In this document: piece by piece, positions 1 through 23,016 of the stretch | Layout: each line of letters begins with the position of its first letter | Numbering within the stretch: the stretch's first letter is position 1 | From: a virus | DNA: 23,212 bases | Reading direction: 5' to 3' (one strand) | Virus record (IMG/VR): IMGVR_UViG_3300013113_000259 | Location: 1 to 23,212 of that record | The notes under the pieces: model-generated | Told to the model about the DNA's origin: nothing | The model's database searches: none | What the model saw: only the letters and a program-made list of their open reading frames with translations | Position numbers and translations under genes: made by a program

Positions 1-273
1 TTGTTCATCTGTTAAATTCTTAGCAATAATAACAGGAATCTCTGTTAATCCTGCATCTTGACACGCTCTGTATCTCATATTACCGCCCAATATCATCATA
101 TCTTTATTTACTACAATAGGTCTTATTTGTAGCATTTCAGGAAACTCTTTTACGCTTTTAGTTAACTTCTCAAGTTTTTCATCTCTTATGAATCTTGGGT
201 TATTCTCATTCATAGTAATGTCATTCACACTCACTATAACAGTACTATACTTCTCAACGGTTTTTGTTGCCAT
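1..273 (-). CDS. ParB N-terminal-domain protein, 5' part only (runs off left edge)
   Basis: The first 91 residues of a longer protein are visible; its C-terminus lies outside the window. It reads as a ParB/Srx-like N-terminal domain: MNENNPR (residues 21-27) followed by a Lys/Glu-rich helix, then RPIVV (51-55) and the family signature LGGNMRYRAC (62-71), then IPVIIA. In this family the GGxxRxxA loop binds nucleotide and phosphate. Free-standing or fused versions are common in phages, where the domain is often joined to a DNA methyltransferase or accompanies nuclease-type functions. Which of these applies cannot be seen here. The ATG at 273 follows the TAG of the upstream gene after one base, so the two are probably co-translated. 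The domain call is solid; the biological role is open. Confidence 0.85.
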   Translation of the reverse strand, partial: MATKTVEKYSTVIVSVNDITMNENNPRFIRDEKLEKLTKSVKEFPEMLQIRPIVVNKDMMILGGNMRYRACQDAGLTEIPVIIAKNLTDEQ

Positions 274-274
274 A

Positions 275-517
275 CTAAAAGATTATGTTGTATATGATAA
301 TTGGTAATGAAAAGATAAATAGCCTTGAGAAAGCATATTTAACATTTGTAAAATCTTTTGCCCATACTGTAAACTGCTGATGTTCTCTATGAGGTAACAG
401 TATATGTAACGTCCTATCTACTAAATAGATTATAAACATAAAAAAGATAACAAGGTAACCTGCTATCTTATACAATAAATTAAATTTAGATTTTTTGCTT
501 AACTTTTTTGTGCTCAT
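275..517 (-). CDS. small membrane protein of unknown function
   Basis: An 80-residue protein. The N-terminus is basic (STKKLSKKSK). It is followed by a strong membrane segment, about residues 14-32 (LYKIAGYLVIFFMFIIYLV), and ends with a second hydrophobic stretch (LFIFSLPIIIYNIIF). An in-frame TTG at 526 is a possible start, but the ATG at 517 with an A-rich leader is preferred. The stop is one base from the ATG of the ParB-domain gene, so it reads as part of the same transcript. No family was recognised. Small inner-membrane proteins in phage early regions are sometimes superinfection-exclusion or host-takeover factors, but nothing in the sequence proves that here. Confidence 0.6.
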   Translation of the reverse strand: MSTKKLSKKSKFNLLYKIAGYLVIFFMFIIYLVDRTLHILLPHREHQQFTVWAKDFTNVKYAFSRLFIFSLPIIIYNIIF

Positions 518-554
518 TTTATTCAATTTGGTGTTGCTAAGTTATGAAAGAAAT

Positions 555-597
555 CAGAGGAGGCTGAGTCAATCGCAGAGTAAAGTTACCCCCTCTG
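555..597 (-). other. large-loop hairpin in the 518-635 gap
   Basis: In minus-strand RNA, 597-589 (CAGAGGGGG) pairs with 563-555 (CCTCCTCTG) over 9 bp with one G-U wobble, leaving a 25-nt loop. On the plus strand the same position would be an A-C mismatch, which favours a minus-strand RNA. The 3' side is moderately T-rich (ATTTCTTTC), so it could be a weak terminator after the 636-884 gene or a 5' leader structure of the 275-517 gene. A TAACTTTA sequence (588-581) within it resembles a Bacteroidota -7 box, with a TTG 22 nt upstream. Either way the structure is only a candidate. Confidence 0.35.
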
Positions 598-635
598 TCC
601 TAAAACATAACAATACTAATATAGTAAAATATGCG

Positions 636-884
636 TTACTTATCATTTATTACTGTAAATTTATTTTGTTTATGAAGATTATACATTTTTTTTAGTATCT
701 CTTTTAAGCATAAGCAATTCAAATTCGTTGCTCTTTCTTTTGGTTCAAAGAACTCAATACTTTTCTGATATCTCTGCAATGTATCGTGAAGATTTAACAC
801 TTTAAATTCTTTGTAATGTATCATACAATTGTCCTGCTTAGACAAATAGCTAAACATTTCATTCCACGTTAGCTCGTTCTTCAT
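636..884 (-). CDS. hypothetical protein, mostly helical
   Basis: An 82-residue protein if started at the ATG at 884 (MKNELTWNEMF). The open frame continues to a TTG at 920, but that would overlap the upstream gene by 62 nt. A second ATG at 857 lies one base after the upstream TGA (TGA-A-ATG) and is an equally plausible start, giving 73 residues. The sequence is charged and helical with several Cys (NCLCLK near the middle) and a basic tail. No family was recognised. It sits in the string of small early-region genes between 275 and 1944. Confidence 0.6.
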   Translation of the reverse strand: MKNELTWNEMFSYLSKQDNCMIHYKEFKVLNLHDTLQRYQKSIEFFEPKERATNLNCLCLKEILKKMYNLHKQNKFTVINDK

Positions 885-1161
885 TTTTAATGTTTTCTTC
901 TGCGATATGATTTGCAACAATTTCTTTTGTTTTTTTATCTATGTATTTAGTCTTTATTACTTTACCGTCTACACTAAACTTAAAAACAATGTAGTTTCCT
1001 TTTTCTCTTTTTGTTGTGAGAATTCTAACTAATTCGTGAGAGTTACTTCTGCTTGTACCAACGTATATAGTTTGCTGATTTGTGTCTTTTGCTCCGTAGC
1101 TTTTACTTGATTTGTAAATACATGCATCTACATCAACCCATATTGGATAACTTCTGCTCAT
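859..1161 (-). CDS. conserved-type phage hypothetical protein
   Basis: A 100-residue protein opening with SRSYPIWVDVDACIYKSSKS, then a Gly/Ser-rich loop (IYVGTSRSNSHELV) and a basic beta-rich centre (NYIVFKFSVDGKVIKTKYID), ending in a helical, acidic tail. The opening looks like a small protein I have seen repeatedly in phages of Bacteroidota, but I know no function for it; that impression is from memory, not a search. Its ATG overlaps the TGA of the upstream gene (ATGA), so translational coupling is likely. Confidence 0.75.
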   Translation of the reverse strand: MSRSYPIWVDVDACIYKSSKSYGAKDTNQQTIYVGTSRSNSHELVRILTTKREKGNYIVFKFSVDGKVIKTKYIDKKTKEIVANHIAEENIKNEERANVE

Positions 1162-1391
1162 TGTTTTCTGTCTTTTAATGTGTTTATAAACTTTTGTCTT
1201 TCATTAGCAATATTTGCTTCAACTAAATGTTGCATTAACCTGCACATAAATTCATCATTCGTTTTGTTAATGATATTATCAACCAAGAACTCAACTGCCT
1301 CTGTTTCGCTTAAATCATTAAATTCTTGAATCGCCTGTTTTTTTTGTCCATTAATGTAGGACTCAATAATTTTATCAAATAAATTTTCCAT
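1158..1391 (-). CDS. hypothetical small helical protein
   Basis: A 77-residue, almost wholly helical protein (MENLFDKIIESYINGQKK and onwards), acidic in the centre with a basic C-terminus (INTLKDRKQ). No family was recognised. The start is well supported: the ATG at 1391 is preceded by the early-region leader motif ACATAAC with a 3-nt gap. Its stop overlaps the start of the next gene (ATGA at 1161-1158). Confidence 0.7.
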   Translation of the reverse strand: MENLFDKIIESYINGQKKQAIQEFNDLSETEAVEFLVDNIINKTNDEFMCRLMQHLVEANIANERQKFINTLKDRKQ

Positions 1392-1394
1392 GTT

Positions 1395-1401
1395 GTTATG
1401 T
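1395..1401 (-). promoter_or_regulatory. ACATAAC start-proximal leader motif
   Basis: Minus strand reads ACATAAC-AAC-ATG, with the ATG at 1391 and an A-tract upstream. It has no complementarity to a normal anti-Shine-Dalgarno and recurs before other early-region genes. Confidence 0.6.
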
Positions 1402-1419
1402 TTTTTATTTAATAATTGT

Positions 1420-1602
1420 TTAATATGGTTTACTTATTAATAATACTTCTTTTGTATCGGTACATATAACTGCTTGAAAGTTTTCGCACTTGATATGCTT
1501 ACATAATATATAAGTTCCCGATATTTCTCCGCTTGATACTAAATCGTCTTGTTTTTCACAATATGTAAAAAATGCTTCTTCTTGTAATTCTATTGTTTCC
1601 AT
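1420..1602 (-). CDS. hypothetical small protein
   Basis: A 60-residue protein (METIELQEEAFFTYCEKQ) with three further Cys (ILCKHIKC and AVIC) that could form a small metal site, though no classical zinc-finger spacing is evident. No family was recognised. A variant of the leader motif (GCATAAC) precedes the ATG by 4 nt. The gene sits just after the hairpin terminator at 1634-1650, with only about 30 nt between hairpin and start and no visible promoter, so it is probably read by partial read-through. Confidence 0.6.
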   Translation of the reverse strand: METIELQEEAFFTYCEKQDDLVSSGEISGTYILCKHIKCENFQAVICTDTKEVLLISKPY

Positions 1603-1606
1603 TTTT

Positions 1607-1613
1607 GTTATGC
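1607..1613 (-). promoter_or_regulatory. GCATAAC start-proximal leader motif (variant)
   Basis: Minus strand reads GCATAAC-AAAA-ATG, with the ATG at 1602. It is the only copy of the early-region motif whose first base differs. Confidence 0.45.
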
Positions 1614-1633
1614 TTTATTTGTTATTAATAAAA

Positions 1634-1650
1634 GAGGGGATTACCCCCTC
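1634..1650 (-). terminator. intrinsic terminator or attenuator
   Basis: In minus-strand RNA, GAGGGG (1650-1645) pairs with CCCCTC (1639-1634) over 6 bp around a 5-nt loop, followed by TTTTATTAAT. It lies directly downstream of the 1660-1944 gene. Because the next gene starts about 30 nt later, it may act as an attenuator. Confidence 0.75.
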
Positions 1651-1659
1651 GTTTTTGCT

Positions 1660-1944
1660 TTAATCAAATAATTTAATTTTTTGGTCTATAATTTTATTAC
1701 CCCAACTCTTTTCCCATCTCCATATTTTAAAATATGTTTGAGGTTTACAATTGTTCCATTGAAACATAATTCTATCATCTCTCATTTCATCATATTGTAA
1801 ACAATCGGGCTTTATACCCCAAGTTCTTAATGATATAAATAGAGCATCAAGATATTTACGCTCTATCTTTACTTGATAAGTTTCAAAAGTATTACACTTT
1901 GAGTAAAACTCGTTTTCTGTTAATTGTGTCTTTGTCGTTTTCAT
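1660..1944 (-). CDS. hypothetical protein, Trp-rich
   Basis: A 94-residue protein that is basic and rich in aromatic residues, with five Trp; the C-terminal half carries FQWNNCKPQTYFKIWRWEKS. No family was recognised. It is probably the first gene of its own transcript: a promoter-like element lies at 1981-2012, a terminator follows immediately (1634-1650), and the ATG at 1944 has the ACATAAC motif with a 3-nt gap. A short monocistronic early unit with its own promoter and terminator is notable in an otherwise continuous gene string. Confidence 0.7.
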   Translation of the reverse strand: MKTTKTQLTENEFYSKCNTFETYQVKIERKYLDALFISLRTWGIKPDCLQYDEMRDDRIMFQWNNCKPQTYFKIWRWEKSWGNKIIDQKIKLFD

Positions 1945-1947
1945 AAT

Positions 1948-1954
1948 GTTATGT
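1948..1954 (-). promoter_or_regulatory. ACATAAC start-proximal leader motif
   Basis: Minus strand reads ACATAAC-ATT-ATG, with the ATG at 1944. Confidence 0.6.
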
Positions 1955-1980
1955 TTTTGTTTTAGCTTTATTGCTATACT

Positions 1981-2012
1981 TAAAAATAAGCATTTTCTTT
2001 CATCAAAACAAG
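1981..2012 (-). promoter_or_regulatory. Bacteroidota-type promoter for the 1660-1944 gene
   Basis: Minus strand has CTTG (2012-2009), then 20 nt, then TATTTTTA (1988-1981), which fits the Bacteroidota -33 TTG / -7 TAnnTTTG form in all but the last base. It sits just downstream of the 2050-2067 terminator and gives a leader of about 30 nt. The block 2000-2026 is 24/27 identical to 4347-4373, which precedes the same kind of gene start. Confidence 0.6.
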
Positions 2013-2041
2013 TTAAATTTAATTTATATTAATAAAAGTAA

Positions 2042-2067
2042 TAAAAAAAAGGAGAACTTAATCTCCT
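2042..2067 (-). terminator. intrinsic terminator closing the replication/recombination module
   Basis: In minus-strand RNA, AGGAGA (2067-2062) pairs with TCTCCT (2055-2050) around a 6-nt loop, and a run of eight T follows (2050-2043). It lies 5 nt after the stop of the XRE-type gene, ending the operon that starts at 8318. Confidence 0.85.
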
Positions 2068-2072
2068 CTTTC

Positions 2073-2291
2073 TTACTCCGAAATAATATCGGCAATCTTT
2101 TGCATTGTTGTTAAATTTAGACCTCTATCAGCGTTTAGGAATAAATAAAGCTGATTTGGGTGTACTGAACATTTTTTTGCAAGTGCATGAACTGACATAT
2201 CATTTTCAATGATGTAATCATTTATCTGCATTCTGCAATCTTTTATCAGATTTTTTAACTGATGCCTTGATATTGGTTTTATCTTTTCCAT
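2073..2291 (-). CDS. XRE-like helix-turn-helix protein
   Basis: A 72-residue protein. Residues 33-53 (SVHALAKKCSVHPNQLYLFLN) form a recognisable helix-turn-helix of the Cro/C1 type: the first helix ends in AKKC, a short turn follows, and HPNQLYLFLN is the recognition helix. Residues 54-71 provide the supporting helices. The N-terminus is basic. It is the last gene before the module's terminator and is likely a DNA-binding regulator of phage genes. There is no cleavage or dimerisation domain, so it is more Cro-like than CI-like. The target is unknown. Confidence 0.75.
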   Translation of the reverse strand: MEKIKPISRHQLKNLIKDCRMQINDYIIENDMSVHALAKKCSVHPNQLYLFLNADRGLNLTTMQKIADIISE

Positions 2292-2301
2292 AACTTAAAT
2301 T

Positions 2302-2691
2302 TTAAAAAGGTAAATCATCGTCTACTTCTGTGCTTATTGCATCTTCAACGAAATTTGCTTCAATCCCACTTTTTTCATACTTGCTTGTTTCATCTTGATA
2401 AGAATTGAACTCTTGTGCTGATTCATTTGTTATCTTCCAAACTTCAAGCGTATTGAAATACTTAATTTCTCCCTTTGGATTAGTCCATGACCTACCTCTT
2501 ACGTTAATAAATGCTTGTACAAGTTCTCCTTCTGCAATATTATCAAGCAATGAGCATCTTTCTTGAGATACCTGCAAGATTATTTGTTGAGGATATTTTT
2601 CTTGCGTTTCAATTACAAATTCTCTGCATGAGAACTTTTCCGACACTTTTTTTGTTGGAAATACCTGTATTAACTTTCCTTTTAAATCCAT
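2302..2691 (-). CDS. DUF3127 single-stranded DNA-binding-like protein
   Basis: A 129-residue protein. Residues 1-87 match the DUF3127 pattern (DLKGKLIQVFPTKKVSEKF at the start; FINVRGRSW followed by YFNTLEVWKI near the end), an OB-fold family found mainly in Bacteroidota. A flexible, acidic linker follows, and the last six residues are DDDLPF. This closely resembles the acidic tip of bacterial SSB, which recruits repair and replication proteins. Fold plus tip plus position next to an annealing protein and exonuclease argue that this is the phage SSB, coating ssDNA in replication and recombination. It overlaps the exonuclease gene by 10 nt. The role is inferred; the tip is directly visible. 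Confidence 0.8.
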   Translation of the reverse strand: MDLKGKLIQVFPTKKVSEKFSCREFVIETQEKYPQQIILQVSQERCSLLDNIAEGELVQAFINVRGRSWTNPKGEIKYFNTLEVWKITNESAQEFNSYQDETSKYEKSGIEANFVEDAISTEVDDDLPF

Positions 2692-3353
2692 GATTCTTGT
2701 TTTTGGTGTTTACTTTTTAATTCTGCCAAACATTCTTTATAGTACTTATTGGCAATTTTGTACTGATTATATATTTCTGTTTCTAATACATTGCATCTTT
2801 CAACTTTTACTGATGTCATTCTATCTTCAAATGGAAGATGGCTAACATCGTGCAATTCTACGTTATCGTATGCTGATAACAAGCTACTTGGTGTCGTTGT
2901 TAAGCAATAGACTACTTCAGCTACATTCTTATCATATAACATCATATAACCTCTTACTTGCCAATCATAACCTGATTTCTTTACTGCTTTATCTGCTTCT
3001 TCTTGAAATGCAGGAAATGTATCAAAACTCCAAGAACATTTTATATCTATGATTCTTTCATCTCCGCAGATATCGCATTCGCCTGTTAGCCAATCAATAG
3101 TTTTTCTTTCTTGGTTTTTTCTAAAGTCCATAAACCTAACCGTATTAAGCATATCAATACCAATAGATTCATTCATAATTCCTTTTTCTGTGTATTTACT
3201 GCTAAAAGACGGAACAATACCAAAGTAATCTTCTTTTGCCTTTTGCATTACATAACTTTTTGTTGTTTCTGCTAAAGGAGAACTTTTTGACCTGCTTTTT
3301 GTCATTATCTTGTGCAACTCGCTACACCTTACTAATAAGTTTTTGTCTTTCAT
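2682..3353 (-). CDS. YqaJ/lambda-exonuclease-type PD-(D/E)XK nuclease
   Basis: A 223-residue recombination exonuclease. The family marks are in order: RCSEL at 9-13; a KGIMNESIGID segment with Glu62; the core GECDICGDERIIDIKCSW (91-108), in which Asp94, Asp103 and Lys105 fit the metal-binding D...DxK of the PD-(D/E)XK fold; and the YDWQVRGYM segment (129-137) with the usual Gln and Tyr. Such enzymes digest one strand of double-stranded DNA ends to give ssDNA for an annealing partner. That partner is most likely the next gene upstream (3355-3981), whose TAA is one base from this ATG, and the SSB-like gene follows. The three form a complete annealing-recombination set. Confidence 0.85.
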   Translation of the reverse strand: MKDKNLLVRCSELHKIMTKSRSKSSPLAETTKSYVMQKAKEDYFGIVPSFSSKYTEKGIMNESIGIDMLNTVRFMDFRKNQERKTIDWLTGECDICGDERIIDIKCSWSFDTFPAFQEEADKAVKKSGYDWQVRGYMMLYDKNVAEVVYCLTTTPSSLLSAYDNVELHDVSHLPFEDRMTSVKVERCNVLETEIYNQYKIANKYYKECLAELKSKHQKQESWI

Positions 3354-3354
3354 T

Positions 3355-3981
3355 TTAATGTTCTTTTTCTACTTTATCCAATTCTTTTGCTAACTCTTTC
3401 TTTTCTTCTTGTTCAATTTTTACTTGCTCACAAAATGTTTCCGCTTTCTTTAATTGTGCAGGTGTTAGCTCAAATGTTTCTATTAACTTTTCTAAAGTAT
3501 AATTACCATTCTTGATAGATTCTAATGCTCCATTCAATCTCTTTGTATCTAACTTTGGCTTTGCAGGTGCAGGTGGCTCATATCCTTCAGGTAAATCTTC
3601 TCCTGCGTAGATATATAAACCAAGACCATGTAATGCTAATGCCTTTGTAGTACTTCTTTGAATAGCTTTATTTACATCAAAACTTGTTACATTATCTAAT
3701 AGTATAGATTTGTTGCGATAATCCATTACAGGCAGGTAATCAATATGCTCAATACCATTGATAGTTACTCCTACCTTAACCCAACAACTTTTACCGTCTG
3801 TAAAATAATTGCATTGGTTTTCGTTTTCGTAAACTGTTCTCTGAACATCGGGATAAAGTTTCTTAACTTCTGCCCAAGCCCACGCCCAAGATAAATAAGT
3901 TAAGTTTCCTTTTTTTTCTGTCTTGTCATTGACATTAATGCTATTTAAAGCATCAAACACTTCTTTCTTTTTTTGTGCCAT
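3355..3981 (-). CDS. DUF1071 single-strand annealing protein (Sak/RAD52-like)
   Basis: A 208-residue protein with the DUF1071 hallmarks: NLTYLSWAWAWAEVKK at 26-41, the YLPVMDYRN strand near 82-90, and the DVNKAIQRSTTKALALHGLG block (102-121) followed by YIYAGEDLP. DUF1071 proteins are phage annealing proteins related to the RAD52-like Sak group (the exact Sak subfamily name is recalled, not checked). They anneal complementary ssDNA exposed by the partner exonuclease. The C-terminal third (about 140-208) is a Pro-rich linker and a charged helix, likely for protein contacts. The start is supported by ACATAAC 3 nt before the ATG. Confidence 0.85.
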   Translation of the reverse strand: MAQKKKEVFDALNSINVNDKTEKKGNLTYLSWAWAWAEVKKLYPDVQRTVYENENQCNYFTDGKSCWVKVGVTINGIEHIDYLPVMDYRNKSILLDNVTSFDVNKAIQRSTTKALALHGLGLYIYAGEDLPEGYEPPAPAKPKLDTKRLNGALESIKNGNYTLEKLIETFELTPAQLKKAETFCEQVKIEQEEKKELAKELDKVEKEH

Positions 3982-3984
3982 TGT

Positions 3985-3991
3985 GTTATGT
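3985..3991 (-). promoter_or_regulatory. ACATAAC start-proximal leader motif
   Basis: Minus strand reads ACATAAC-ACA-ATG, with the ATG at 3981. It precedes the annealing-protein gene. Confidence 0.6.
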
Positions 3992-4007
3992 TTATGATTG
4001 TTATTAA

Positions 4008-4292
4008 TTAAATAGCTTTTCTATACACTGTAAAACTATTGTTATTTTGTTTGTTATTAAACCAAAAAAGTCTAATAACATTACCATCTTCTAAAGTTAT
4101 AGTTTTTCTAAATTGCTTAACAGTTCCTCCATAACGAAGAGATATATCGTCTTTGATTGAGGCTACTTTTTTAGTAACATTAACTTCATTTGTATTAATT
4201 GCTGACGCATAACCTGCTACACCTCTTACTGATACAGTTGCATAAGTTACTTCGTTAAAATTGCTGTCTTTTTGGATGTCTTGAATCTTCAT
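4008..4292 (-). CDS. hypothetical early protein
   Basis: A 94-residue protein (MKIQDIQKDSNFNEVTYATV) with a beta-rich middle (KQFRKTITLEDGNVIRLFWFNN) and a basic C-terminus. No family was recognised. It appears to head a transcript: a promoter-like element lies at 4328-4359 and the ATG has the ACATAAC motif with a 3-nt gap. It is followed by the annealing protein, exonuclease, SSB-like and XRE-type genes. Being first in the recombination unit, it may be a regulator or accessory factor, but this is only a guess from position. Confidence 0.7.
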   Translation of the reverse strand: MKIQDIQKDSNFNEVTYATVSVRGVAGYASAINTNEVNVTKKVASIKDDISLRYGGTVKQFRKTITLEDGNVIRLFWFNNKQNNNSFTVYRKAI

Positions 4293-4295
4293 TTT

Positions 4296-4302
4296 GTTAT
4301 GT
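4296..4302 (-). promoter_or_regulatory. ACATAAC start-proximal leader motif
   Basis: Minus strand reads ACATAAC-AAA-ATG, with the ATG at 4292. Confidence 0.6.
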
Positions 4303-4327
4303 TTTTTGATTACTTATTAACTATATA

Positions 4328-4359
4328 TAAATTTAATAAATATTAATCATAAAAACAAG
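4328..4359 (-). promoter_or_regulatory. Bacteroidota-type promoter for the recombination genes
   Basis: Minus strand has CTTG (4359-4356), then 20 nt, then TAAATTTA (4335-4328), one base from the -7 consensus TAnnTTTG. The geometry is identical to the element at 1981-2012. It lies in the 82-nt gap between 4292 and 4375, where the gene string otherwise has no space. The tract 4322-4337 is also found at 8347-8362. Confidence 0.6.
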
Positions 4360-4374
4360 ATAAATTTAATTTTT

Positions 4375-4806
4375 TTATGTTTGATTTGTATTTTTTTGGA
4401 ATTGTTCTTCTCGCTTTAAGTTACTGATATGCTGATTCATAGCATCGATGATACTTGTTGTATTGTCATAAAACAACCTCATACTATTATACAATCCGTC
4501 CCAACGCTTTTCATCTACATATTCATTTACGGAATAAAATTTTCCTAACTCACTTGCTTTGCTCATTGGGAATCCTGCATCTAAATATTTTTTAGTATTT
4601 TCTCGCTTTACTTTTTCTGTTTGTGCTTCAGCGTTTTTCCATTGGATTCTGCAATCGCCTAATTCTGTTGCATAATAAGATAACAAAGTTACTAATTGGA
4701 TTCTTTGGAACATTAAGTCATTTATACCTGTATAGTCCATTCCTAAATTTCTGTACCAATCTACTATGCTATTGATTTCATCTACTACATCATCAAAGTT
4801 TGTCAT
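4375..4806 (-). CDS. hypothetical helical protein of the replication module
   Basis: A 143-residue, mostly helical and charged protein. It has aromatic-rich helices (IVDWYRNLGMDYTGINDL) and a basic middle (EKVKRENTKKYL), and ends in a hydrophilic Gln/Asn-rich tail. No family was recognised. The start overlaps the end of the ninG-like gene by 14 nt, so it is translationally coupled to it. It is the last gene before the internal promoter at 4328-4359. Confidence 0.7.
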   Translation of the reverse strand: MTNFDDVVDEINSIVDWYRNLGMDYTGINDLMFQRIQLVTLLSYYATELGDCRIQWKNAEAQTEKVKRENTKKYLDAGFPMSKASELGKFYSVNEYVDEKRWDGLYNSMRLFYDNTTSIIDAMNQHISNLKREEQFQKNTNQT

Positions 4807-5344
4807 GTTCTTTTATTTTTTGTTTATACTCGTTATACAATTCTTCTAATTCTTGTTTTGTTAATTTTAATTTACAATACCTGTTATCATCTAACCATTG
4901 CAATTGTTCTTCGCTTATTCTATCTGTAATTCTTTTTCTATACTCATGTATGTTTCCATGCAGGTTTCTATTACAAGGTACGCATTGGCCATGCACGTTA
5001 TCTTCATTAAACCGTAAACCTTCATAAGTTGTAGCGTAAAAATGTCCTGCATCAAATTTCCTGTTTTGCAAAGGTGTTCCGCAACTAACACAACCTTTGT
5101 GCATATCTCGTAATCTTATATACTTGTTAAAGACCGTTTGAACTTTTTTTTTCATATCGCTTAAAGTCATGTTATCCTTGTAGTACTGCTTACGTTCAGC
5201 ACGTGCCTTTTTTTTTGCTTCCTTTTTTATCTTTTGGTTAGAATACTCAATAGCACATTTCGTTGAACATACTATCTGAGTAGATTTGAAAGGAGTAAAC
5301 ATTGCTCCACAAGTTCTGCATTTCTTTTGTTTTAAAGGCTTCAT
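4793..5344 (-). CDS. ninG: NinG/Rap-type recombination nuclease
   Basis: A 183-residue protein with the NinG layout. An N-terminal zinc-binding part (Cys9, Cys12, Cys26, Cys30) is followed by a basic helix of alternating Lys/Arg/Ala (40-57). A second Cys pair (Cys85, Cys88), the FDAGHFYA segment (97-104), the NEDNVHGQC..CN block (113-125) and HGN (129-131) complete the His/Cys-rich nuclease core. In lambda, NinG (Rap) resolves recombination intermediates, acting with Red. The same role fits here beside the annealing protein and exonuclease. Its ATG overlaps the TAA of dnaB (TAATG). Confidence 0.9.
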   Translation of the reverse strand: MKPLKQKKCRTCGAMFTPFKSTQIVCSTKCAIEYSNQKIKKEAKKKARAERKQYYKDNMTLSDMKKKVQTVFNKYIRLRDMHKGCVSCGTPLQNRKFDAGHFYATTYEGLRFNEDNVHGQCVPCNRNLHGNIHEYRKRITDRISEEQLQWLDDNRYCKLKLTKQELEELYNEYKQKIKEHDKL

Positions 5345-6720
5345 TAAAAAGGTATTTCTGTATTTCTATCTTTAAACCCTGCTGAGTAATCTATTGGTAT
5401 TGGTTGTTGGAATGGATTAGGTTTTTCTTCAATATCATTCCATTCACTTGTTTCTAATTTCACTTCCATTTTGTTAATACCAATACTACCGTCTCTATTT
5501 TTAGCAATAATAAACTCACCTATTCCTTCCATATCATTTCCGTTATCATCCATCAACTCTCCATAATATTCAGGTCTATGCAAGAAACTTACAATACTCG
5601 CATCTTGCTCAATTTCTCCACTTTCTTTCAAATCAGGTAAACTTGGTCTTTTACCACTTCTTGCAACATCTCTGTTTAACTGTGCCAATGCAATACAAGG
5701 GATTCTATGGCTCATAACAATACGTTTAATATCATTACTGATTTTTGTTACTTCGTGGTATCTGCTTTCTGATTTATTAGGCATAATCTTTTGCAAATAA
5801 TCTATCATAAACACATCTACTTCTTTTTTATTCTTTACTGTTTGTAGCTTAGTTTCAATATCTTTTGTAGTATGAGAACCGTCAAAGATTATTATGTTTT
5901 CCCAACGTGGATTAGTTTTTAACTTTGTAATCTTAGCTAATTCAGCATCACTACAATTACCATACTTGATATGATTTGAGTTAATACCTGTTATGTTAGA
6001 TATGATTCTTCTTATAATTCTATCGTGAGCCATTTCTAAACTAAAAAATACAACTACCTTGTTTTCTTCAAAACATAAGTTTCTTATGCAGGATATCCCC
6101 CAAGCAGTTTTACCCATTGCAGGTCTACCACCTACTACCATAACATCATCAGGCTCTAATATTAATTCATTTTTTAATACTTTCCAACCCAACTCTAAGC
6201 CTAAAGGTATTCCTAACTTAGCTTGATTATGTTTGTGTATTACTTGCTCAATACTATCTAAATTGGTAACTTCTTTTACTGTTTTATTAACACTCAATAA
6301 CTCCTTAACTTTACTAACTTCTTTAAGTATGTAGTTGCTACGTGGATTAACTTTCTGCATTTCAGCATTGATATTTTGTACCATTAGAAAAATTTTCCTA
6401 ACAGAATACTTATACCAACATTCATTGAGTATTCCTTCTTTATTTAGTGTTTCAGTAAAATCAATGTTTGATGCTAAACAACTTGTCTTATAGATAGTAT
6501 CACTTTCTATCTTATCGTTTTCTCTTAACCATTCTGTAAGATTAAGTAAATCTATATTCTGCCCATTATTTGATAGTTGAGTTATTGCTGAATAGATAGA
6601 CTTGTGAAAATTACTTTGAAACCAATCTGACTCAAGATTATTAATAAATTCTATTTGTTCATTACGGCTAATGTTAAGCACTATACCAAGTGCCTTATCA
6701 AAAATGTTATGTTCTTTCAT
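5344..6720 (-). CDS. dnaB: DnaB-family replicative helicase
   Basis: A 458-residue hexameric replicative helicase that unwinds DNA at the phage fork. The N-terminal primase-interacting domain is at about 5-110. The RecA-like core has Walker A GRPAMGKT (198-205), FFSLEM (225-230), Walker B VFMIDYL (303-309), AQLNR (346-350) and LPDLKESGEIEQDA (361-374), with Arg near 409 in AKNRDG as the likely arginine finger region. All key residues appear intact. The last residues, NTEIPF, resemble an SSB-type tip. It follows the initiator gene with its ATG 10 nt after that gene's TAA, and ACATAAC spans the junction. Confidence 0.95.
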   Translation of the reverse strand: MKEHNIFDKALGIVLNISRNEQIEFINNLESDWFQSNFHKSIYSAITQLSNNGQNIDLLNLTEWLRENDKIESDTIYKTSCLASNIDFTETLNKEGILNECWYKYSVRKIFLMVQNINAEMQKVNPRSNYILKEVSKVKELLSVNKTVKEVTNLDSIEQVIHKHNQAKLGIPLGLELGWKVLKNELILEPDDVMVVGGRPAMGKTAWGISCIRNLCFEENKVVVFFSLEMAHDRIIRRIISNITGINSNHIKYGNCSDAELAKITKLKTNPRWENIIIFDGSHTTKDIETKLQTVKNKKEVDVFMIDYLQKIMPNKSESRYHEVTKISNDIKRIVMSHRIPCIALAQLNRDVARSGKRPSLPDLKESGEIEQDASIVSFLHRPEYYGELMDDNGNDMEGIGEFIIAKNRDGSIGINKMEVKLETSEWNDIEEKPNPFQQPIPIDYSAGFKDRNTEIPF

Positions 6721-6723
6721 TGC

Positions 6724-6730
6724 GTTATGT
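6724..6730 (-). promoter_or_regulatory. ACATAAC start-proximal leader motif
   Basis: Minus strand reads TA-ACATAAC-GCA-ATG, with the ATG at 6720. The motif overlaps the stop codon of the initiator gene. A second ACATAAC at 6711-6705 falls inside the first codons of dnaB. Confidence 0.6.
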
Positions 6731-7464
6731 TACTTAGTCGGAATATAAGTTTCTTTTTTGGTACTATCAAATCCATACTTATCTAATGTTGCTGACCTGC
6801 TAAAGTATTCTAAGGTGCAATACTTGTAATTGTTTTCTGTATGGAAATTATCTTTACTCGCTTTCTGCATTGCCTTTGAAATATTTTCTCGAGAATATCC
6901 TTCTTTTATTCTTGCTAAATATTTACTTTTGTTAGCATCATTAAAAACACGATTATTCTTTTTGAATGTTTGATTAAAGAACATTAATAAGTTATCCCAA
7001 TTAATATTTTCTTTTATTTCCTTTATTTTTATTTCCTTTGTTGCTTTTTGCTTAACACTTGTTACTTTTTGTTTAACATCTGTTACTTTTTGCTTTCTTG
7101 CAACTGCTGACATCTGACCTGCATAAGACCTAACTTGTTTAATTTTTTCACGTTTAGCAATATTTTCTAATACTCTTTCTGAATATATATAATTACCCTT
7201 CTTTTTAAACAATTCACAAATCTTTACCTGATAAGTAATTATTTCTTTAACAAGATTTACATCTTCTTTAAAAGTACTTGCAATAGCTTCAAAAATATAA
7301 GGTTTAAGATATAGCTTATGGTCTTGTTCTTCGTGCAATATTTCAACAACTCTCCAATAAATTCCGTAACCCTTTGCACCATATTTGCCTAATAAGGCTT
7401 GTATTTTTGTATCATTTGTAGTGCTATAATCGTGAGAAAAATAATACGCTTCTTTGTTATTCAT
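6730..7464 (-). CDS. replication initiator, Lin1244/Lin1753-type (DUF4373) N-terminus
   Basis: A 244-residue protein. Residues 4-95 match the Lin1244/Lin1753 N-terminal domain (YYFSHDYSTTNDTKIQ, then YGAKGYGIYWRVVEILHEE), a winged-helix domain of phage and mobile-element replication proteins. Residues 124-143 are a basic repeat (KQKVTDV, KQKVTSV, KQKATK). The C-terminal part ends in NNYKYCTLEYFSR...LDKY, as in many phage O-like/DnaD-like initiators. It is placed directly before dnaB and probably binds the origin and helps load helicase. The DNA encoding the basic repeat is itself a 21-bp tandem repeat whose core recurs in the control region at 8400-8424, so the origin may involve both. Confidence 0.8.
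   Translation of the reverse strand: MNNKEAYYFSHDYSTTNDTKIQALLGKYGAKGYGIYWRVVEILHEEQDHKLYLKPYIFEAIASTFKEDVNLVKEIITYQVKICELFKKKGNYIYSERVLENIAKREKIKQVRSYAGQMSAVARKQKVTDVKQKVTSVKQKATKEIKIKEIKENINWDNLLMFFNQTFKKNNRVFNDANKSKYLARIKEGYSRENISKAMQKASKDNFHTENNYKYCTLEYFSRSATLDKYGFDSTKKETYIPTK
7039..7101. repeat. three 21-bp tandem units inside the initiator gene (iteron-like)
   Basis: Units at 7039-7059, 7060-7080 and 7081-7101 begin TGTTGCTTTTTGC, TGTTACTTTTTGT and TGTTACTTTTTGC on the plus strand and keep an exact 21-base period. They encode the 7-residue protein repeat KQKVTDV/KQKVTSV/KQKATKE. The core GTTACTTTTTGTTTAA (7061-7076) recurs inverted at 8526-8541 and nearly intact at 8400-8415, which a purely protein-level repeat would not predict. 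Confidence 0.6.
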
Positions 7465-7466
7465 AT

Positions 7467-7473
7467 GTTATGT
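7467..7473 (-). promoter_or_regulatory. ACATAAC start-proximal leader motif
   Basis: Minus strand reads TAA-ACATAAC-AT-ATG: the motif begins right after the stop of the upstream gene and ends 2 nt before the initiator ATG at 7464. Confidence 0.6.
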
Positions 7474-7821
7474 TTATATTTCAATACTATCTAATGTAGC
7501 TAACATGGATTCTGCTCTTTGCTTTACTCCTTGGACATATTTTCTGCGTTCTTCTATGTCCTGCTCAATCCAATAACCTTTATTTGAAGCGATTAAATTA
7601 ATAATAAGTCCTTGTATTCTTATGAAATTTATTATCTTTCTTATCCTCGGTTCACTAATTTTTTTATACCCGTACTTCTGTAAACCTTTAATCATTTGGG
7701 TATTTGTAATAGCATTTTCTTTACCTATCTTAGTTTGTAAACCTTTAACTATTACAGGTAAAACAACATTCTGTTCGTACTCACTTAATTGCTCTGTTTC
7801 TTTTTTAAATCCGTAAATCAT
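7474..7821 (-). CDS. winged-helix-like small phage protein
   Basis: A 115-residue protein. The centre (about 38-88) looks like a winged helix: ITNTQMIKGLQKYGYKKISE, RIRKIINFIRIQGLI and a wing ending in KGYWIE. A helical C-terminus follows (ERRKYVQGVKQRAESMLAT). This pattern is familiar in phages of Bacteroidota next to replication initiators. DNA binding is inferred from the fold-like pattern and position, not from a named family. It does not carry the ACATAAC leader; its leader ends AAAGTT before the ATG. Confidence 0.7.
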   Translation of the reverse strand: MIYGFKKETEQLSEYEQNVVLPVIVKGLQTKIGKENAITNTQMIKGLQKYGYKKISEPRIRKIINFIRIQGLIINLIASNKGYWIEQDIEERRKYVQGVKQRAESMLATLDSIEI

Positions 7822-7830
7822 AACTTTTTT

Positions 7831-8052
7831 TTATACGTAATACAATTCAACTTTTTTTCGTGTATCGTTTACAATTTCTAAATACTTTAAATACAATTCT
7901 CTATTGAAACTACTTCTGATAATTATATCATTATGAGGCTTCTCCCAAGAATTAATCTTAGCCATTGTTTCAGCTCCTATGTAAGTATTTTTTTGCATTG
8001 CTTTTACTTGTTTCTTTTTTATACGAAACATTTTTCTAACTAACTTTTTCAT
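7831..8052 (-). CDS. hypothetical small basic protein
   Basis: A 73-residue protein with a very basic N-terminus (MKKLVRKMFRIKKKQVKAMQ) and a more ordinary C-terminal half that ends in VELYYV. No family was recognised. The basic N-terminus could bind nucleic acid. It sits as second gene of the early operon starting at 8318, with 11 nt to each neighbour or less. Confidence 0.6.
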   Translation of the reverse strand: MKKLVRKMFRIKKKQVKAMQKNTYIGAETMAKINSWEKPHNDIIIRSSFNRELYLKYLEIVNDTRKKVELYYV

Positions 8053-8063
8053 TTTTGTAAATT

Positions 8064-8318
8064 TTAATCTGTGAAGATGAATATTAAATCTGTTCCTGCA
8101 ATTCGTTTTGTTAAGTAGATATAACCATTTTCTGATACTGTTAATTTAAACTTTTTGCGAACTAAAAAGTTAATCATTCTTGAGTTATACGTTCCTTGAA
8201 CTCGACAATCTGCTCTGTTAATATCTATATGATAGATATGCTTGTCGTTTTTTAAATACTCTGTTAAAATATACAATATCTTAACTCTTGACTTTGATAA
8301 AAGATTTTCTTTTTCCAT
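8064..8318 (-). CDS. hypothetical first gene of the early operon, HTH-like
   Basis: An 84-residue protein. It begins with helices (SKSRVKILYILTEYLKND), continues through a segment with RADCRVQGTYNSRMINFLVRKKF and ends in a beta hairpin (KLTVSENGYIYLTKR). This helix-helix-wing order is compatible with a small winged-helix DNA-binding protein, but no family was recognised. As the gene nearest the control region 8319-8502 it may be an early regulator. ACATAAC precedes its ATG by 3 nt. Confidence 0.6.
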   Translation of the reverse strand: MEKENLLSKSRVKILYILTEYLKNDKHIYHIDINRADCRVQGTYNSRMINFLVRKKFKLTVSENGYIYLTKRIAGTDLIFIFTD

Positions 8319-8321
8319 TAT

Positions 8322-8328
8322 GTTATGT
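8322..8328 (-). promoter_or_regulatory. ACATAAC start-proximal leader motif
   Basis: Minus strand reads ACATAAC-ATA-ATG, with the ATG at 8318. It marks the first gene of the early operon. Confidence 0.6.
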
Positions 8329-8344
8329 TTTAAATTATACTTTA

Positions 8345-8430
8345 AATATATATAAATTTAATTTATAATCATAATCTTTGTTGAAAAACTTTCAATATTT
8401 GTTACTTTTTGTTAAGCATATGTTCAACAA
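8345..8430. promoter_or_regulatory. early control region with inverted repeats (possible origin and promoter)
   Basis: No gene fits here. The right part holds nested inverted repeats: TTGTTGAA (8378-8385) with TTCAACAA (8423-8430), and TTGAAA (8381-8386) with TTTCAA (8390-8395). The left part is almost pure A/T and includes a TAAATTTA (8360-8353, minus strand) identical to the -7 box at 4335-4328 inside a shared 16-nt tract, but without a matching TTG 20 nt upstream. The region must carry the promoter for the 8318 operon and could be an operator or replication origin. Confidence 0.45.
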
Positions 8431-8541
8431 AAACAAAGGGTGCTACCGCAAACGATAACACCCCGTACCCCTGTCCAACACCAATTGAACAAATAATTAT
8501 TACTAATCTATTTCAAACTCATTAATTAAACAAAAAGTAAC
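8400..8541. repeat. inverted pair of the iteron-like core flanking the late terminator
   Basis: 8400-8415 reads TGTTACTTTTTGTTAA. 8526-8541 reads TTAAACAAAAAGTAAC, the reverse complement of the core in the initiator gene (16/16 to 7061-7076). 8400-8424 matches 7060-7084 at 22 of 25 positions. The right copy lies within the last codons of the endolysin gene and the left copy in the control region, so the pair brackets the terminator and the whole non-coding gap. Confidence 0.5.
8425..8463 (-). terminator. strong intrinsic terminator ending the late operon
   Basis: In minus-strand RNA, GGGTGTTATCG (8463-8453) pairs with CGGTAGCACCC (8448-8438) over 11 bp, including two G-U wobbles, around the 4-nt loop TTTG. 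It is followed by the T-rich tract TTTGTTTTTGTTG (8437-8425). It lies 40 nt downstream of the endolysin stop. Confidence 0.9.
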
Positions 8542-9129
8542 CATTATTTGAGTACCCTTTTCATAAGATTTTTTATAATACTCAATCTGTTTGAGATATT
8601 CTTTTCTATTATTTATTACTTGACAACCTGCTGACCAATAACCAATTGCCCACTTAACTATTTTTAGATTTGCTAAACTAAAATCATAGGTATTTGTATG
8701 GTAATTTATACCAAACCAACCTAATTCATAATCTCCTATTTCTTCTGCTTTTCGATTTTTATTACCATCACGATAAACCTTTACCCTTCGTCCTGTTTGT
8801 TTTAATGAAGGCATCTTACCCCTGTGAAGTCCATAACTCCAAACATTGTAATACCATTCATCTGATTTTAAAATTGCAGTTCCTTTTATGTTGTATTTTA
8901 AAAAACCACCTCTTAAAACTCCTGCTCCTGCATTAGTAGTACCTGTTAAAACTCTGATAAACTTTTCTCCTTCAAACTCATAAAATTTATCATCATAAGT
9001 GTTATAAACATCTTCATTAGAACGAACGCCTAATATCCACCTTTGTTTTGGAATTTTTTTAAAATTGGGTAGGCTCTTAACCTTATCAAGCAACTGTTTA
9101 TCTGTATAGGCTCTTACTTTTGTGCTCAT
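8503..9129 (-). CDS. candidate endolysin with L,D-transpeptidase-like H...SxGC motif
   Basis: A 208-residue protein, last gene of the late operon and directly after holin and spanin candidates, which is the usual place for an endolysin. The C-terminal part has GINYHTN with His144 and GYWSAGCQV with Ser166, Gly168 and Cys169. The spacing resembles the H...S-x-G-C signature of YkuD-type L,D-transpeptidases, in which the Cys is the nucleophile. Upstream motifs (TGTTNAGAG at 62-70, SYGLHRGKMPSLKQ at 98-111, VYRDGN at 118-123) fit a family seen in Bacteroidota and Gammaproteobacteria, recalled rather than searched. It probably acts on cell-wall peptides; whether it cleaves or exchanges cross-links is unknown. 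Its ATG overlaps the spanin gene's stop (ATGA). No signal peptide is visible, so it would need the holin. Confidence 0.7.
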   Translation of the reverse strand: MSTKVRAYTDKQLLDKVKSLPNFKKIPKQRWILGVRSNEDVYNTYDDKFYEFEGEKFIRVLTGTTNAGAGVLRGGFLKYNIKGTAILKSDEWYYNVWSYGLHRGKMPSLKQTGRRVKVYRDGNKNRKAEEIGDYELGWFGINYHTNTYDFSLANLKIVKWAIGYWSAGCQVINNRKEYLKQIEYYKKSYEKGTQIMVTFCLINEFEID

Positions 9130-9602
9130 TTTAGCAGTTTAAGAAATTTGTATATAATTACCATCGCTAATAAAATTAACAATATCATACCAATAGTTAA
9201 GGCATAAGTTTTTACACAAAATTCATCTTTTACCTCATAATACTTAACGGGAATTTTTCTTTCAATAATCTTATCAATATATACAGTATCACATTTTGCG
9301 TCAATGTATATTGAATCGTGTACTTGAGTTATTTTAACTCGTAGCTTTTCTTTTTCTATGATTAATGTATCCTGTAAGCTGATTAAGAAGCTATCTAAGA
9401 GCATTACGGTATCAGTTTGGACAATCGGTATGTTAATTTTAATTGTATCTGTTAAAAGGACTGTATCTGTTTGATGAACAAAAGGATATTTTTTAACTAA
9501 CCTTGCGTGTCTTTTTATTGGAGAACAAGAAGTTAAAGCTAATATTGTTATTAATACAATTAAACCGATTATTACACTTACTTGCTCTTTAAATTTTCCC
9601 AT
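9126..9602 (-). CDS. candidate unimolecular spanin (lipobox plus C-terminal TM)
   Basis: A 158-residue protein. Residues 8-25 form a signal-type hydrophobic helix ending in the lipobox L23-T24-S25-C26. A periplasmic part of about 100 residues follows, rich in alternating Val/Ile/Thr/Asp (several DT-V/I repeats such as QTDTVLLTDTIKI), which looks beta-structured. A membrane helix lies at about 132-152, with a short basic tail. Outer-membrane lipid anchor, beta-rich middle and C-terminal inner-membrane helix is the plan of unimolecular spanins such as T1 gp11, which fuse the two membranes at lysis. It overlaps the holin gene by 25 nt and the endolysin gene by 4 nt. An Rz-like factor without a lipid anchor is the main alternative. 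Confidence 0.7.
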   Translation of the reverse strand: MGKFKEQVSVIIGLIVLITILALTSCSPIKRHARLVKKYPFVHQTDTVLLTDTIKINIPIVQTDTVMLLDSFLISLQDTLIIEKEKLRVKITQVHDSIYIDAKCDTVYIDKIIERKIPVKYYEVKDEFCVKTYALTIGMILLILLAMVIIYKFLKLLK

Positions 9603-12623: not shown

Positions 12624-14756
12624 TTATGCTTCTTCTTTTACTGCAATAACATCCCACTTAGTATCTGTGCTATTATAAACTGCTCCAACATACAATGTCT
12701 TATTCGCTGTTGTTGATGCAGGTAAAGTTACTCCAATTGCTCTCCATACTGCATTCCAAGTAAATGCCCTTGAAGTTCCGTCATCTTTGAATCTCAACAT
12801 TAATCTTTGACCTTGAACGGGAGTTCCCGTTGGTGCTTCTATTGTTGTTGCACCTGCCATTGCTGTTAGAACACCCAATGTTTCATTATCCGCATCTATG
12901 GTAAACGTTATGTCTGAGGTTGTTTCTTGAACTGGTGGATTAATAACCGCGTTTGTAATACGGTTGTTATCCATATCTAAATCAGTAGATATTTCAACTG
13001 ATGTCGTAGTACATTTTAATTTTGTCGTTAAAGTTCCATTTTGAGCAACTTGTAATGCTAAGTCACCCTCTTCACTTCCTCCCGTATTGCTAACTATTGT
13101 ACCCAACATACCTGCGTAAGATGTTTGACCCGAAAAGGAGTTATTTAGGTCAATAGTATATAAAGCACCATAATTGGCAAAGTGCCAAGGTCTATACAAT
13201 GAAAACTTATAAAAACTTGCATCCCCAGTAACTACGGCATTTTGACCCGCTTTTATATTTCCATTATCTAAGAAATCCCAAGTTTTATTTGGCGTCGTAT
13301 CATTATCATATAAAGCAAAAGTTGAACCCGTCGTAGTTCCATCGCCTTGAACCGTTACTTTCCCCGACGGAGTAGTAGTTCCAAAACCGAAATTACCACT
13401 TCCTCCGTAATAAGAATCAACATTTTGCCCTATGTATAAAGCGTTGGTAGTATCATTAAGATTTACAACAAAAGTTTGGTCAACTGAATTAGTTTGTGCC
13501 GAGTTGTTCGTGCTTAATAAAATAGACCTTTGCCCACTTACGGTATTTCCTCGTCCACCTATTGCTATACTATTAACCCCACTTGCAACACTTGCATATC
13601 CTAAAGCTATTGCATAACTTGACGTAGCACCCGAAGCAAATCCTAACGCTAAGGCCCTCGTCGTTGCTTGAGTATTTACCCCCATTGCTATTCCTCCAGA
13701 GTTCGTACTTTGTGCGTTGTTACCGATTGCTACGCCATAAATTCCCGTTATTATTTTAGCTCCGTTACCAATTGCTACCCCGCTATTTGTTTCAGCACTT
13801 GAGTTGTATCCAATCGCTATATCGTAATTACCTTTAGCGTCTGAGCCTGTTCCAATGGCTATTGAGCTATCTGCATCCGTTGCTTCTGCGTTAAAACCAA
13901 TTGCCACACTATACTCACCTGCCGTCGTTGCTCCTTTCCCTAAAGTAAAAGCACCGTTGTCTAACAGTGATATTATCGTATCTCCTGCTTGATTGTTAAA
14001 CGATAATGAGTTTCCGTCTAAATCAAGTATTCTATTTCCTGATAAAACACCATCTGCTGAATAAATTGATGAAACAGATAATCCTGCAATTTCATCGTCG
14101 ACATATTTCTTTGGAACAAGAGATGTATCAACCAAAGTCGAATAATTCGCACCCGTTCCATTTGTTTCAGAAGTTTCTCCGAATCCTATTAATAAAATTC
14201 CATATTTGTTAGTAGAATTATCTGTATACCATGTATTACTTGTACCTACTGAACCAACTTGTAAAGTTCCATTTCCTGACGAAACTATTGCGTTTAGTCC
14301 ATCAATTGACATATCCGTTCCACCTTCTGATAAAGAGATTGAACCGGGAGCAATATTTAACGAAGTATAATTTGAAGGCCCATCAGCTATGAATATAATA
14401 TCCGTTCCGTTGATATTATAACTTGTAACAACATTTGTAGATGTATCGTTTAAAAAGCCTACTATTCCTGCACTACCGAATCTTGAATTACCAATTATAT
14501 TACTACTTGAATCATTGATATCAAACTTAAATTCTTTATCTGTTAAGAAATGCTCACGATTTGCTGATAAAGTAAGATTGTTAGTATTAAAAAGGTTTTC
14601 TGATACAACCGCCGCTAAAATCGCCGCCTTAATTACACTTCCTTTTATTTTTGCCGTTTCATAACTTGAACCCGTCCAATAGTCAATGTCGTAATAGTCA
14701 TCATCACCAAAAGCTAATCTTTCTAACGGGTACTGATTTATTTTTATTCCTGCCAT
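12624..14756 (-). CDS. tail fibre with YadA-head (Hep_Hag) repeats
   Basis: A 710-residue protein. The N-terminus (AGIKINQYPLERL) is probably the virion attachment part. VPKKYVDDEIAG (about 214-225) is a string common in phage fibres. Residues about 281-417 carry repeats of the YadA-head type (SVAIGFNAEA, SIAIGTGSDA, DIAIGYNSSA, GVAIGNGAK, IALGYASVA), which form a left-handed beta-roll in trimeric adhesins. The C-terminal domain (about 640-710: GQRLMLRFKDDGTSRAFTW, later GVTLPASTTANKTLYVG) is known from many phage fibres. It is likely trimeric and receptor-binding. No endosialidase-type self-cleaving chaperone is seen at the end. Confidence 0.85.
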   Translation of the reverse strand: MAGIKINQYPLERLAFGDDDYYDIDYWTGSSYETAKIKGSVIKAAILAAVVSENLFNTNNLTLSANREHFLTDKEFKFDINDSSSNIIGNSRFGSAGIVGFLNDTSTNVVTSYNINGTDIIFIADGPSNYTSLNIAPGSISLSEGGTDMSIDGLNAIVSSGNGTLQVGSVGTSNTWYTDNSTNKYGILLIGFGETSETNGTGANYSTLVDTSLVPKKYVDDEIAGLSVSSIYSADGVLSGNRILDLDGNSLSFNNQAGDTIISLLDNGAFTLGKGATTAGEYSVAIGFNAEATDADSSIAIGTGSDAKGNYDIAIGYNSSAETNSGVAIGNGAKIITGIYGVAIGNNAQSTNSGGIAMGVNTQATTRALALGFASGATSSYAIALGYASVASGVNSIAIGGRGNTVSGQRSILLSTNNSAQTNSVDQTFVVNLNDTTNALYIGQNVDSYYGGSGNFGFGTTTPSGKVTVQGDGTTTGSTFALYDNDTTPNKTWDFLDNGNIKAGQNAVVTGDASFYKFSLYRPWHFANYGALYTIDLNNSFSGQTSYAGMLGTIVSNTGGSEEGDLALQVAQNGTLTTKLKCTTTSVEISTDLDMDNNRITNAVINPPVQETTSDITFTIDADNETLGVLTAMAGATTIEAPTGTPVQGQRLMLRFKDDGTSRAFTWNAVWRAIGVTLPASTTANKTLYVGAVYNSTDTKWDVIAVKEEA
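13506..13946 (-). repeat. Hep_Hag/YadA-head repeat block inside the fibre gene
   Basis: At least eight units of about 14 residues with the AIG/ALG core (SVAIGFNA, SIAIGTGS, DIAIGYNS, GVAIGNGA, GVAIGNNA, GIAMGVNT, ALALGFAS, AIALGYAS). Unit sequences diverge, so these are protein-level rather than perfect DNA repeats. Confidence 0.75.
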
Positions 14757-22572: not shown

Positions 22573-23016
22573 TCAATCGAGTGCCAATACTTGCCTTGCG
22601 TAGAGAATAAAATTTTCCTTAATCTTTTCAGCATACTTTTCAAGATTTTCTTCTGTTAAACCTAATATATCTATACTCCACCAATTTTGGTCTTCCATTT
22701 TTGTATAGTTAGCATCTATCAGAATACTATCTTTTAAGACTTTTATAAACATAGAACGATAAAATTCTCCCGTATCTTTTAAAGTGTAGGGGTCACCCAT
22801 TTTTTTTCTACCATTAGTCATTACCTCTGTTAGATAACTGTAAGTACCAATGATATCTTCATTAGCATCTATACCTTCATCAAATAATTGGTCATTTCTA
22901 ATATAGTCTAAAATCATTTGTTCTACATCATTAGTATGCGATTCAAACCATGCAATACTATCATCTAACAGTAATGCTTTTTGTAACTGTTCGTCTATTT
23001 TAGTTTGACCTATCAT
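22573..23016 (-). CDS. putative tail-completion or minor tail protein
   Basis: A 147-residue, mostly helical, acidic protein. The centre carries GRKKMGDPYTLKDTGEFYRS (69-88), a pattern reminiscent of head-tail/tail-completion proteins of phages of Bacteroidota; this is recalled, not searched. It is the first gene after the terminator at 23051-23068 and is followed 4 nt later by the tape-measure chaperone-type gene. No promoter is visible in the 30-nt leader, so it is presumably reached by read-through. Confidence 0.65.
   Translation of the reverse strand: MIGQTKIDEQLQKALLLDDSIAWFESHTNDVEQMILDYIRNDQLFDEGIDANEDIIGTYSYLTEVMTNGRKKMGDPYTLKDTGEFYRSMFIKVLKDSILIDANYTKMEDQNWWSIDILGLTEENLEKYAEKIKENFILYARQVLALD

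Follow-up and report, generated by a model that had tools for sequence, protein, structure and literature searches.

In the virus contig IMGVR_UViG_3300013113_000259 (23.2 kb, with genes nearly all on the minus strand; "the window" below means this whole stretch of 23,212 nucleotides (nt)), the heptamer ACATAAC stands a few nucleotides before the start codons of early genes, and we consider it, judging from its sequence context, probably an RNA-level start-associated element for early genes that are uncoupled from the preceding gene. An initial annotation had listed eight minus-strand starts with this heptamer, hereafter the tag, at a nearly fixed distance from the ATG, and all eight proved to be in place (Table 1). 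Seven carry exact ACATAAC and one carries GCATAAC, the spacers to the ATG being, in order of rising coordinate, 3, 4, 3, 3, 3, 3, 2 and 3 nt (2–4 nt overall, with six of eight at 3 nt). None of the starts of the genes from 23016 to 8503, treated here as the late set, is tagged, as had been claimed, and this includes the start at 23016 itself.

The tag is far more frequent than chance would predict. RCATAAC occurs 17 times in the whole window against 7.8 expected from dinucleotide shuffles, and exact ACATAAC was found 2–4 nt before the ATG at 7 of 33 window genes against 0.064 expected (P = 4e-13) under a position-specific first-order model of 612 starts of relatives, a model whose own A-richness from −14 to −10 and at −3 builds in a Kozak-like context. 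Searches for relatives with DnaB, Sak, the exonuclease and NinG gave well over a hundred contigs, and the relatives are metagenomic fragments. When all 16,384 heptamers were scanned at the window starts, the overlapping CATAACA and ACATAAC came out on top with seven copies each (best P = 1.3e-8 after Bonferroni). The identical scan recovered the Shine-Dalgarno (SD) sequence AAGGAGA only in the SD-using phages L055 and L056, at comparable strength, and the method therefore finds true initiation signals. Shuffles, positional null and heptamer scan together rule out chance arising from AT-richness or from an A-rich start context, and the tag's frequency at starts thus exceeds what base composition, the correction named in the initial annotation, and start context would give.

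The tagged starts are those of early genes with leaders of their own. Starts and gaps were defined by the longest open reading frames (ORFs) beginning with ATG (greedy calls), and gap sizes depend on these calls. Among the window genes from 1391 to 8318, the tag was present at all six with an upstream gap above 12 nt, at two of five with a gap of 9–11 nt, and was absent from every start that overlapped or abutted. Across six contigs (the window and five relatives), it stood at 24/97 starts with a gap above 12 nt, 9/43 with a gap of 5–12 nt and 1/105 with a gap of at most 4 nt (P = 8e-8 for the first against the last class). Because late genes are more tightly packed, early and late starts (classed after the closest gene having a window homologue) were compared only at gaps of at least 9 nt, where the tag was present at 34 of 102 early and 0 of 36 late starts (P = 8e-6). 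The objection that the early-only pattern is an artefact of dense late genes is true in part, but the bias persists at these gaps, and the proposal that the heptamer marks the early gene class holds after this control as well.

Lineage-specific versions and turnover of tagged genes

Enrichment at the starts of relatives was also observed. Eight genes of L025 have ACATAAC at their starts, as do 4–5 in L007 and L021, 3–4 in L016 and L017, and further ones in L018 and others. In nine related records, ACATAAC-N1-5-ATG was counted 31 times and its reversed control 6 times, almost every copy in a record lying on the same strand. Among the IMG/VR matches listed, the motif stood at called gene starts in 30 of 80 loci against 6 of 80 control loci. 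Orthologues of the tagged replication initiation protein gene (in L025, L016 and L017) and of the DnaB-like helicase gene (in L021, L022, L025, L027 and L016) are likewise tagged, and L008, L021 and L025 have a tag in the same position as the window site at 8322–8328. Tags in relatives also sit before non-homologous genes.

The letters of the tag differ between lineages. L008 and L009, whose DnaB proteins are 75–76% identical to that of the window, have ACACAAC and no ACATAAC at their starts, all tag copies in L008 being of the ACACAAC type, and a third group (L014, L026, L028 and L030–L034) has ACAATTA, often in tandem. The starts of Sak orthologues bear ACATAAC, ACACAAC or ACAATTA according to lineage. 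Same-version pairs within genomes numbered 92, against a mean of 42 and a maximum of 66 in 5000 permutations; one relative, L021, is mixed, with four ACATAAC and one ACACAAC. The version goes with the genome and not with the gene, and ACATAAC is one lineage's version in a family of start-associated sequences whose copies vary together within each genome.

Genes behind the tag have turned over within a single slot. Between the 143-amino-acid gene (window 4806–4375) and sak lie mutually non-homologous ORFs, each behind its own lineage's tag; no between-group blastp match was obtained at 1e-3 among the groups compared (the window, L021, L008, L018, L010, the L025 group and L014), with L022 and L035 as exceptions. 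The slot after the helix-turn-helix (HTH) gene, held in the window by gene 1944–1660, is also tagged in L008, L021, L025 and L035. In the slot before sak, the gene was replaced several times with the tag persisting, and since non-homologous genes stand behind tags in the same slot, the tag is no passenger of one gene.

Other repeats near starts were encountered among the contigs. Tandem tag copies (AAACAATTAAAACAATTAAAAC and ACATAACACATAAC) lie directly before the ATG in leaders of L031, L014 and L030 and at 2536–2549 of L016. AAACCAAAACAAA precedes each of five tiny ORFs that follow one another at 8314–9133 of L400; in L400 and L399 it is another private start-associated sequence. At 2874–9291 of L053, eight starts are preceded by AAAATTTAT, which is recurrent near the ATG and may serve as promoter or start tag.

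Level of action and competing explanations

Overall, the interpretation offered in the initial annotation, an RNA-level element or early-gene marker, is supported. For the RNA level, the support comes from a fixed distance to the ATG, a single orientation, presence at operon-internal starts and higher predicted accessibility. Of 35 ACATAAC-type sites across the window and its relatives, 22 have a spacer of exactly 3 nt to the ATG and 33 one of 2–4 nt, and tags also occur at operon-internal starts that have no recognisable promoter. The contacts with upstream stop codons that had been pointed out are present at two window sites, one sharing its first A with a TAA and the other adjoining one (Table 1). 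The leader from −14 to −1 is predicted to be more unpaired at tagged starts (mean 0.77) than at untagged uncoupled starts (mean 0.62; P = 4e-4). In window positions 1–9200, Rfam covariance models matched nothing at E values up to 1, and a known RNA family was rejected for that region. We infer that the tag acts in RNA and on initiation.

If so, a start-associated sequence of about the form AAA-ACATAAC-ANN-ATG, with ACATAAC as its core (for example, AAAACATAACAAAATG), would constitute the translation initiation region of uncoupled early genes. In the mRNA, the tag would leave the 30S landing site unpaired and put A at about −13 to −10, −6 and −3, while the further fixed letters C-9, T-7 and C-4 (at 3 nt spacing) form a lineage-specific signature common to a genome's copies. 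Either the host 30S subunit (or its bS1) or an RNA-binding protein of the phage may be the reader, and the effect may be positive or negative.

Known rules of initiation in the Bacteroidota account for part of this pattern. Flavobacterium johnsoniae does without SD pairing, and A at −3, −6, −12 and −13 promotes initiation there in a Kozak-like manner (Baez et al. 2019, PMC6847099). A partial fit to a preference for A at −3 and −6 had been suggested, and most tags do conform: A is at −6 in seven and at −3 in six of the eight window tags. With 3 nt spacing and the usual flanking A residues, the tag gives A at −3, −5, −6, −8 and −10 to −13 and thereby supplies most of the promoting positions; by the F. 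johnsoniae rules it would be a good initiation region. The Kozak-like context is, however, a nucleotide preference with no fixed heptamer and is not described as limited to a gene class, and A-rich rules do not explain why C-9, T-7 and C-4 are fixed, nor do they account for the early-only pattern or the in-step variation. Since all copies in a genome share the lineage-specific signature at these three positions, these features point to a common reader. No version of the tag has a G-rich core that would be an SD sequence complementary to CCUCC of 16S rRNA.

Several observations weigh against an RNA-level element for uncoupled early genes. Of early starts with their own leader (gap of at least 9 nt), 68 of 102 lack the tag; start 7464 breaks the rule of A at −3 and −6; the gain in accessibility partly follows from A-richness; and common descent among close genomes contributes to the sharing of versions. 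The comparison with host sequences used proxies only, which leaves room for a host-wide preference in the actual host.

A possible but rather doubtful alternative is that the tag is the operator of a phage RNA-binding translational regulator resembling T4 RegA, a control site and not an enhancer, at which a phage protein would bind AAAACAUAACAAAAUG RNA; at the RNA level it overlaps with the explanation we prefer. T4 RegA shuts off about 30 early mRNAs by binding each one at its AUG or immediately in front of it. RegA sites are rich in A+U, lack structure and carry a poly(A) tract on their 5' side, and RB69 RegA selects AAUAAUAAUAAnA (PMC3014915). The tag is similarly early-only and lies in unstructured A/U-rich RNA beside the AUG, its common lineage signature suggests a co-evolving reader, and tandem copies occur at some starts in L016 and in the ACAATTA lineage. 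RegA sites, however, have no conserved heptamer at fixed spacing, and the early window proteins that were scanned yielded neither a RegA relative nor another RNA-binding family, though the window is a fragment and most of these proteins are unassigned.

A more elaborate form of the start-associated element, which we regard as speculative and unlikely, is that each lineage of SD-less Bacteroidota phages has a private start-associated sequence read by an initiation factor that the phage encodes or modifies; this factor would pick out early phage mRNAs and co-evolve with the tag. Newly acquired genes would then be plugged in behind the tag.

We give little credence to a generic start preference of the host, with the phage merely matching the host's own genes. 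The tag does fit the A-rich rule of the Bacteroidota, but that context is already held in the positional null, and late genes of the same phages are without the tag. Four Bacteroidota replicons (Flammeovirga, Persicobacter, Parabacteroides and Segatella; 2.4 Mb), which came from a plasmid collection and are proxies for the true host, showed no enrichment, with 13 matches where the reversed control had 47, and neither did seven isolated Flavobacteriia phages, with 2 matches to 4 in the control. As far as could be tested within these four replicons and seven phages, the tag is not a general Bacteroidota feature.

It is also quite improbable that the tag works as a site in DNA, either a promoter element or a repressor site like the stoperators of cluster A mycobacteriophages, placed at gene boundaries in one orientation. 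Stoperators are likewise asymmetric, repeated, one-directional and mostly intergenic, with a lineage-specific consensus, but they are 13-base-pair (bp) DNA repressor sites not described as fixed to a start codon (PMC3029335), and the placement of the tag is tied to the ATG, which argues against such a reading. As for promoters, TAHHTT(A/T)G occurs within 25 nt upstream of about a third of tags (only 22 of 65), usually at 12–18 nt (range 5–25), and in relatives TATATT(A/T)G lies 12–18 nt upstream at about a third. The tag itself does not match the Bacteroidota −7 element (TAHHTTTG) and has no fixed spacing to such an element; the window sites have no fixed upstream box, the spacing to the ATG is much tighter than that to any promoter, and operon-internal sites overlap or adjoin the upstream stop codon. 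Early leaders of L007, L008, L010 and L018 contain a recurrent promoter-like AAATTTATATATT(A/T)G 12–18 nt before the tag, which is a variant of the −7 element.

What a start-associated repeat at the DNA level looks like can be seen in Nonlabens phage P12024S (L298, JQ823122). CGTTAAT occurs there near six starts (3019, 5400, 21269, 23949, 25189 and 26790), a few nt before the ATG, with a AAAACAAA box about 17 bp upstream of it at a nearly fixed distance, and the phage codes for a sigma-70-like protein (sigma-70 region 2). In contrast to the tag, CGTTAAT with AAAACAAA is probably a phage-specific promoter that yields near-leaderless mRNAs.

A recombination linker, that is, a short boundary homology for cassette swapping spread by duplication and without a role in expression, is equally hard to credit: turnover of the genes behind the tag within one slot does speak for it, as does the Sak annealing protein encoded by the phages, and short boundary sequences were earlier proposed for lambdoid phages (as cited in PMC3029335), but the tag keeps throughout to the start side and to one orientation, 2–5 nt from the ATG, is early only, is uniformly of one type in L008 and, at 7–10 nt, offers very short homology.

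Genomic setting and relation to known systems

The region from 8318 down to 275 codes for a Lin1244/Lin1753-type replication initiation protein, a DnaB-like helicase, a NinG endonuclease, a Sak annealing protein, an exonuclease, a DUF3127 single-strand binding protein and a Cro/C1-type HTH protein. The late genes are largely without assignment, with one tail-protein match and one endolysin-like match. Tagged genes 1391, 1602, 1944 and 4292 have no homologues in the fetched loci, and their reality therefore rests on length, strand and position. The DUF3127 protein matches chiefly phages of Flavobacterium, Polaribacter, Cellulophaga, Nonlabens and Tenacibaculum, and the host is therefore probably in the Flavobacteriia; the virus is one of Bacteroidota bacteria, probably marine ones. 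A DnaB search in GTDB genomes gave one match, to an unrelated Oscillospiraceae, and recovered no host genome.

Table 1. Tag sites and adjacent features of the window
Feature	Position	Strand	Distance	Gene or remark
ACATAAC	8322–8328	−	3 nt before ATG	8318–8064, first early gene
ACATAAC	7467–7473	−	2 nt before ATG	7464–6730, replication initiation protein; abuts upstream TAA
ACATAAC	6724–6730	−	3 nt before ATG	6720–5344, DnaB-like helicase; first A shared with upstream TAA
ACATAAC	4296–4302	−	3 nt before ATG	4292–4008, orphan, 94 amino acids
ACATAAC	3985–3991	−	3 nt before ATG	3981–3355, Sak-type single-stranded DNA annealing protein
ACATAAC	1948–1954	−	3 nt before ATG	1944–1660, orphan
GCATAAC	1607–1613	−	4 nt before ATG	1602–1420
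ACATAAC	1395–1401	−	3 nt before ATG	1391–1158
Terminator-like hairpin	1634–1650	−		just upstream of tagged start 1602
TATATTTA, −7-like promoter element	8343–8350	−	14 nt upstream of tag	read from sequence

Not every copy of the heptamer precedes a start. The copies at 5990–5996, 12907–12913 and 16082–16088, given in the initial annotation as chance occurrences, exist, but that list was incomplete, missing several copies on the plus strand and a second ACATAAC at 6706–6712. The latter lies within the first dnaB codons (His-Asn), and L007 and L012/L013 conserve it as coding sequence, including where no tag stands upstream. Terminator-like hairpins stand directly upstream of tagged starts both in the window and in L035 (just upstream of 11970); no recognisable promoter lies between hairpin and start in either case, which suggests antitermination or readthrough in the early region.

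A search of the literature, covering open-licence papers, found nothing on point about start motifs in Bacteroidota phages. The nearest known system is the start-associated sequence (SAS) of cluster K mycobacteriophages, a 13-bp consensus, GGGATAGGAGCCC, with an SD core and an unproven function (Pope et al. 2011, PMC3203893). Both are short asymmetric repeats a few nt before the start (3–7 bp in SAS, 2–5 nt here), in one orientation and mostly before ATG, and both occur only in the non-structural half, are kept at genes of different families and are absent or rare in other phages. The restriction of the tag to the non-structural side follows from the early and late counts at gaps of at least 9 nt given above, and at starts it is found in sense orientation only. 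By its letters, however, the tag is no member of the SAS family: it reads (A)AAACATAACA, does not match the 13-bp consensus, and is AT-rich without an SD core, in a phylum that does not use SD. Cluster K phages, moreover, share one conserved SAS, whereas the tag differs in version from lineage to lineage. An ESAS-like inverted repeat did not come to light, although no systematic search for one was made.

How Bacteroidota ribosomes choose starts without SD pairing is incompletely explained, and it is here that the marking of early, uncoupled starts is relevant. The lineage-varied tag is a compact natural mutational series for what ribosomes or a phage factor recognise, and it would help to annotate the early genes and start codons of these phages.

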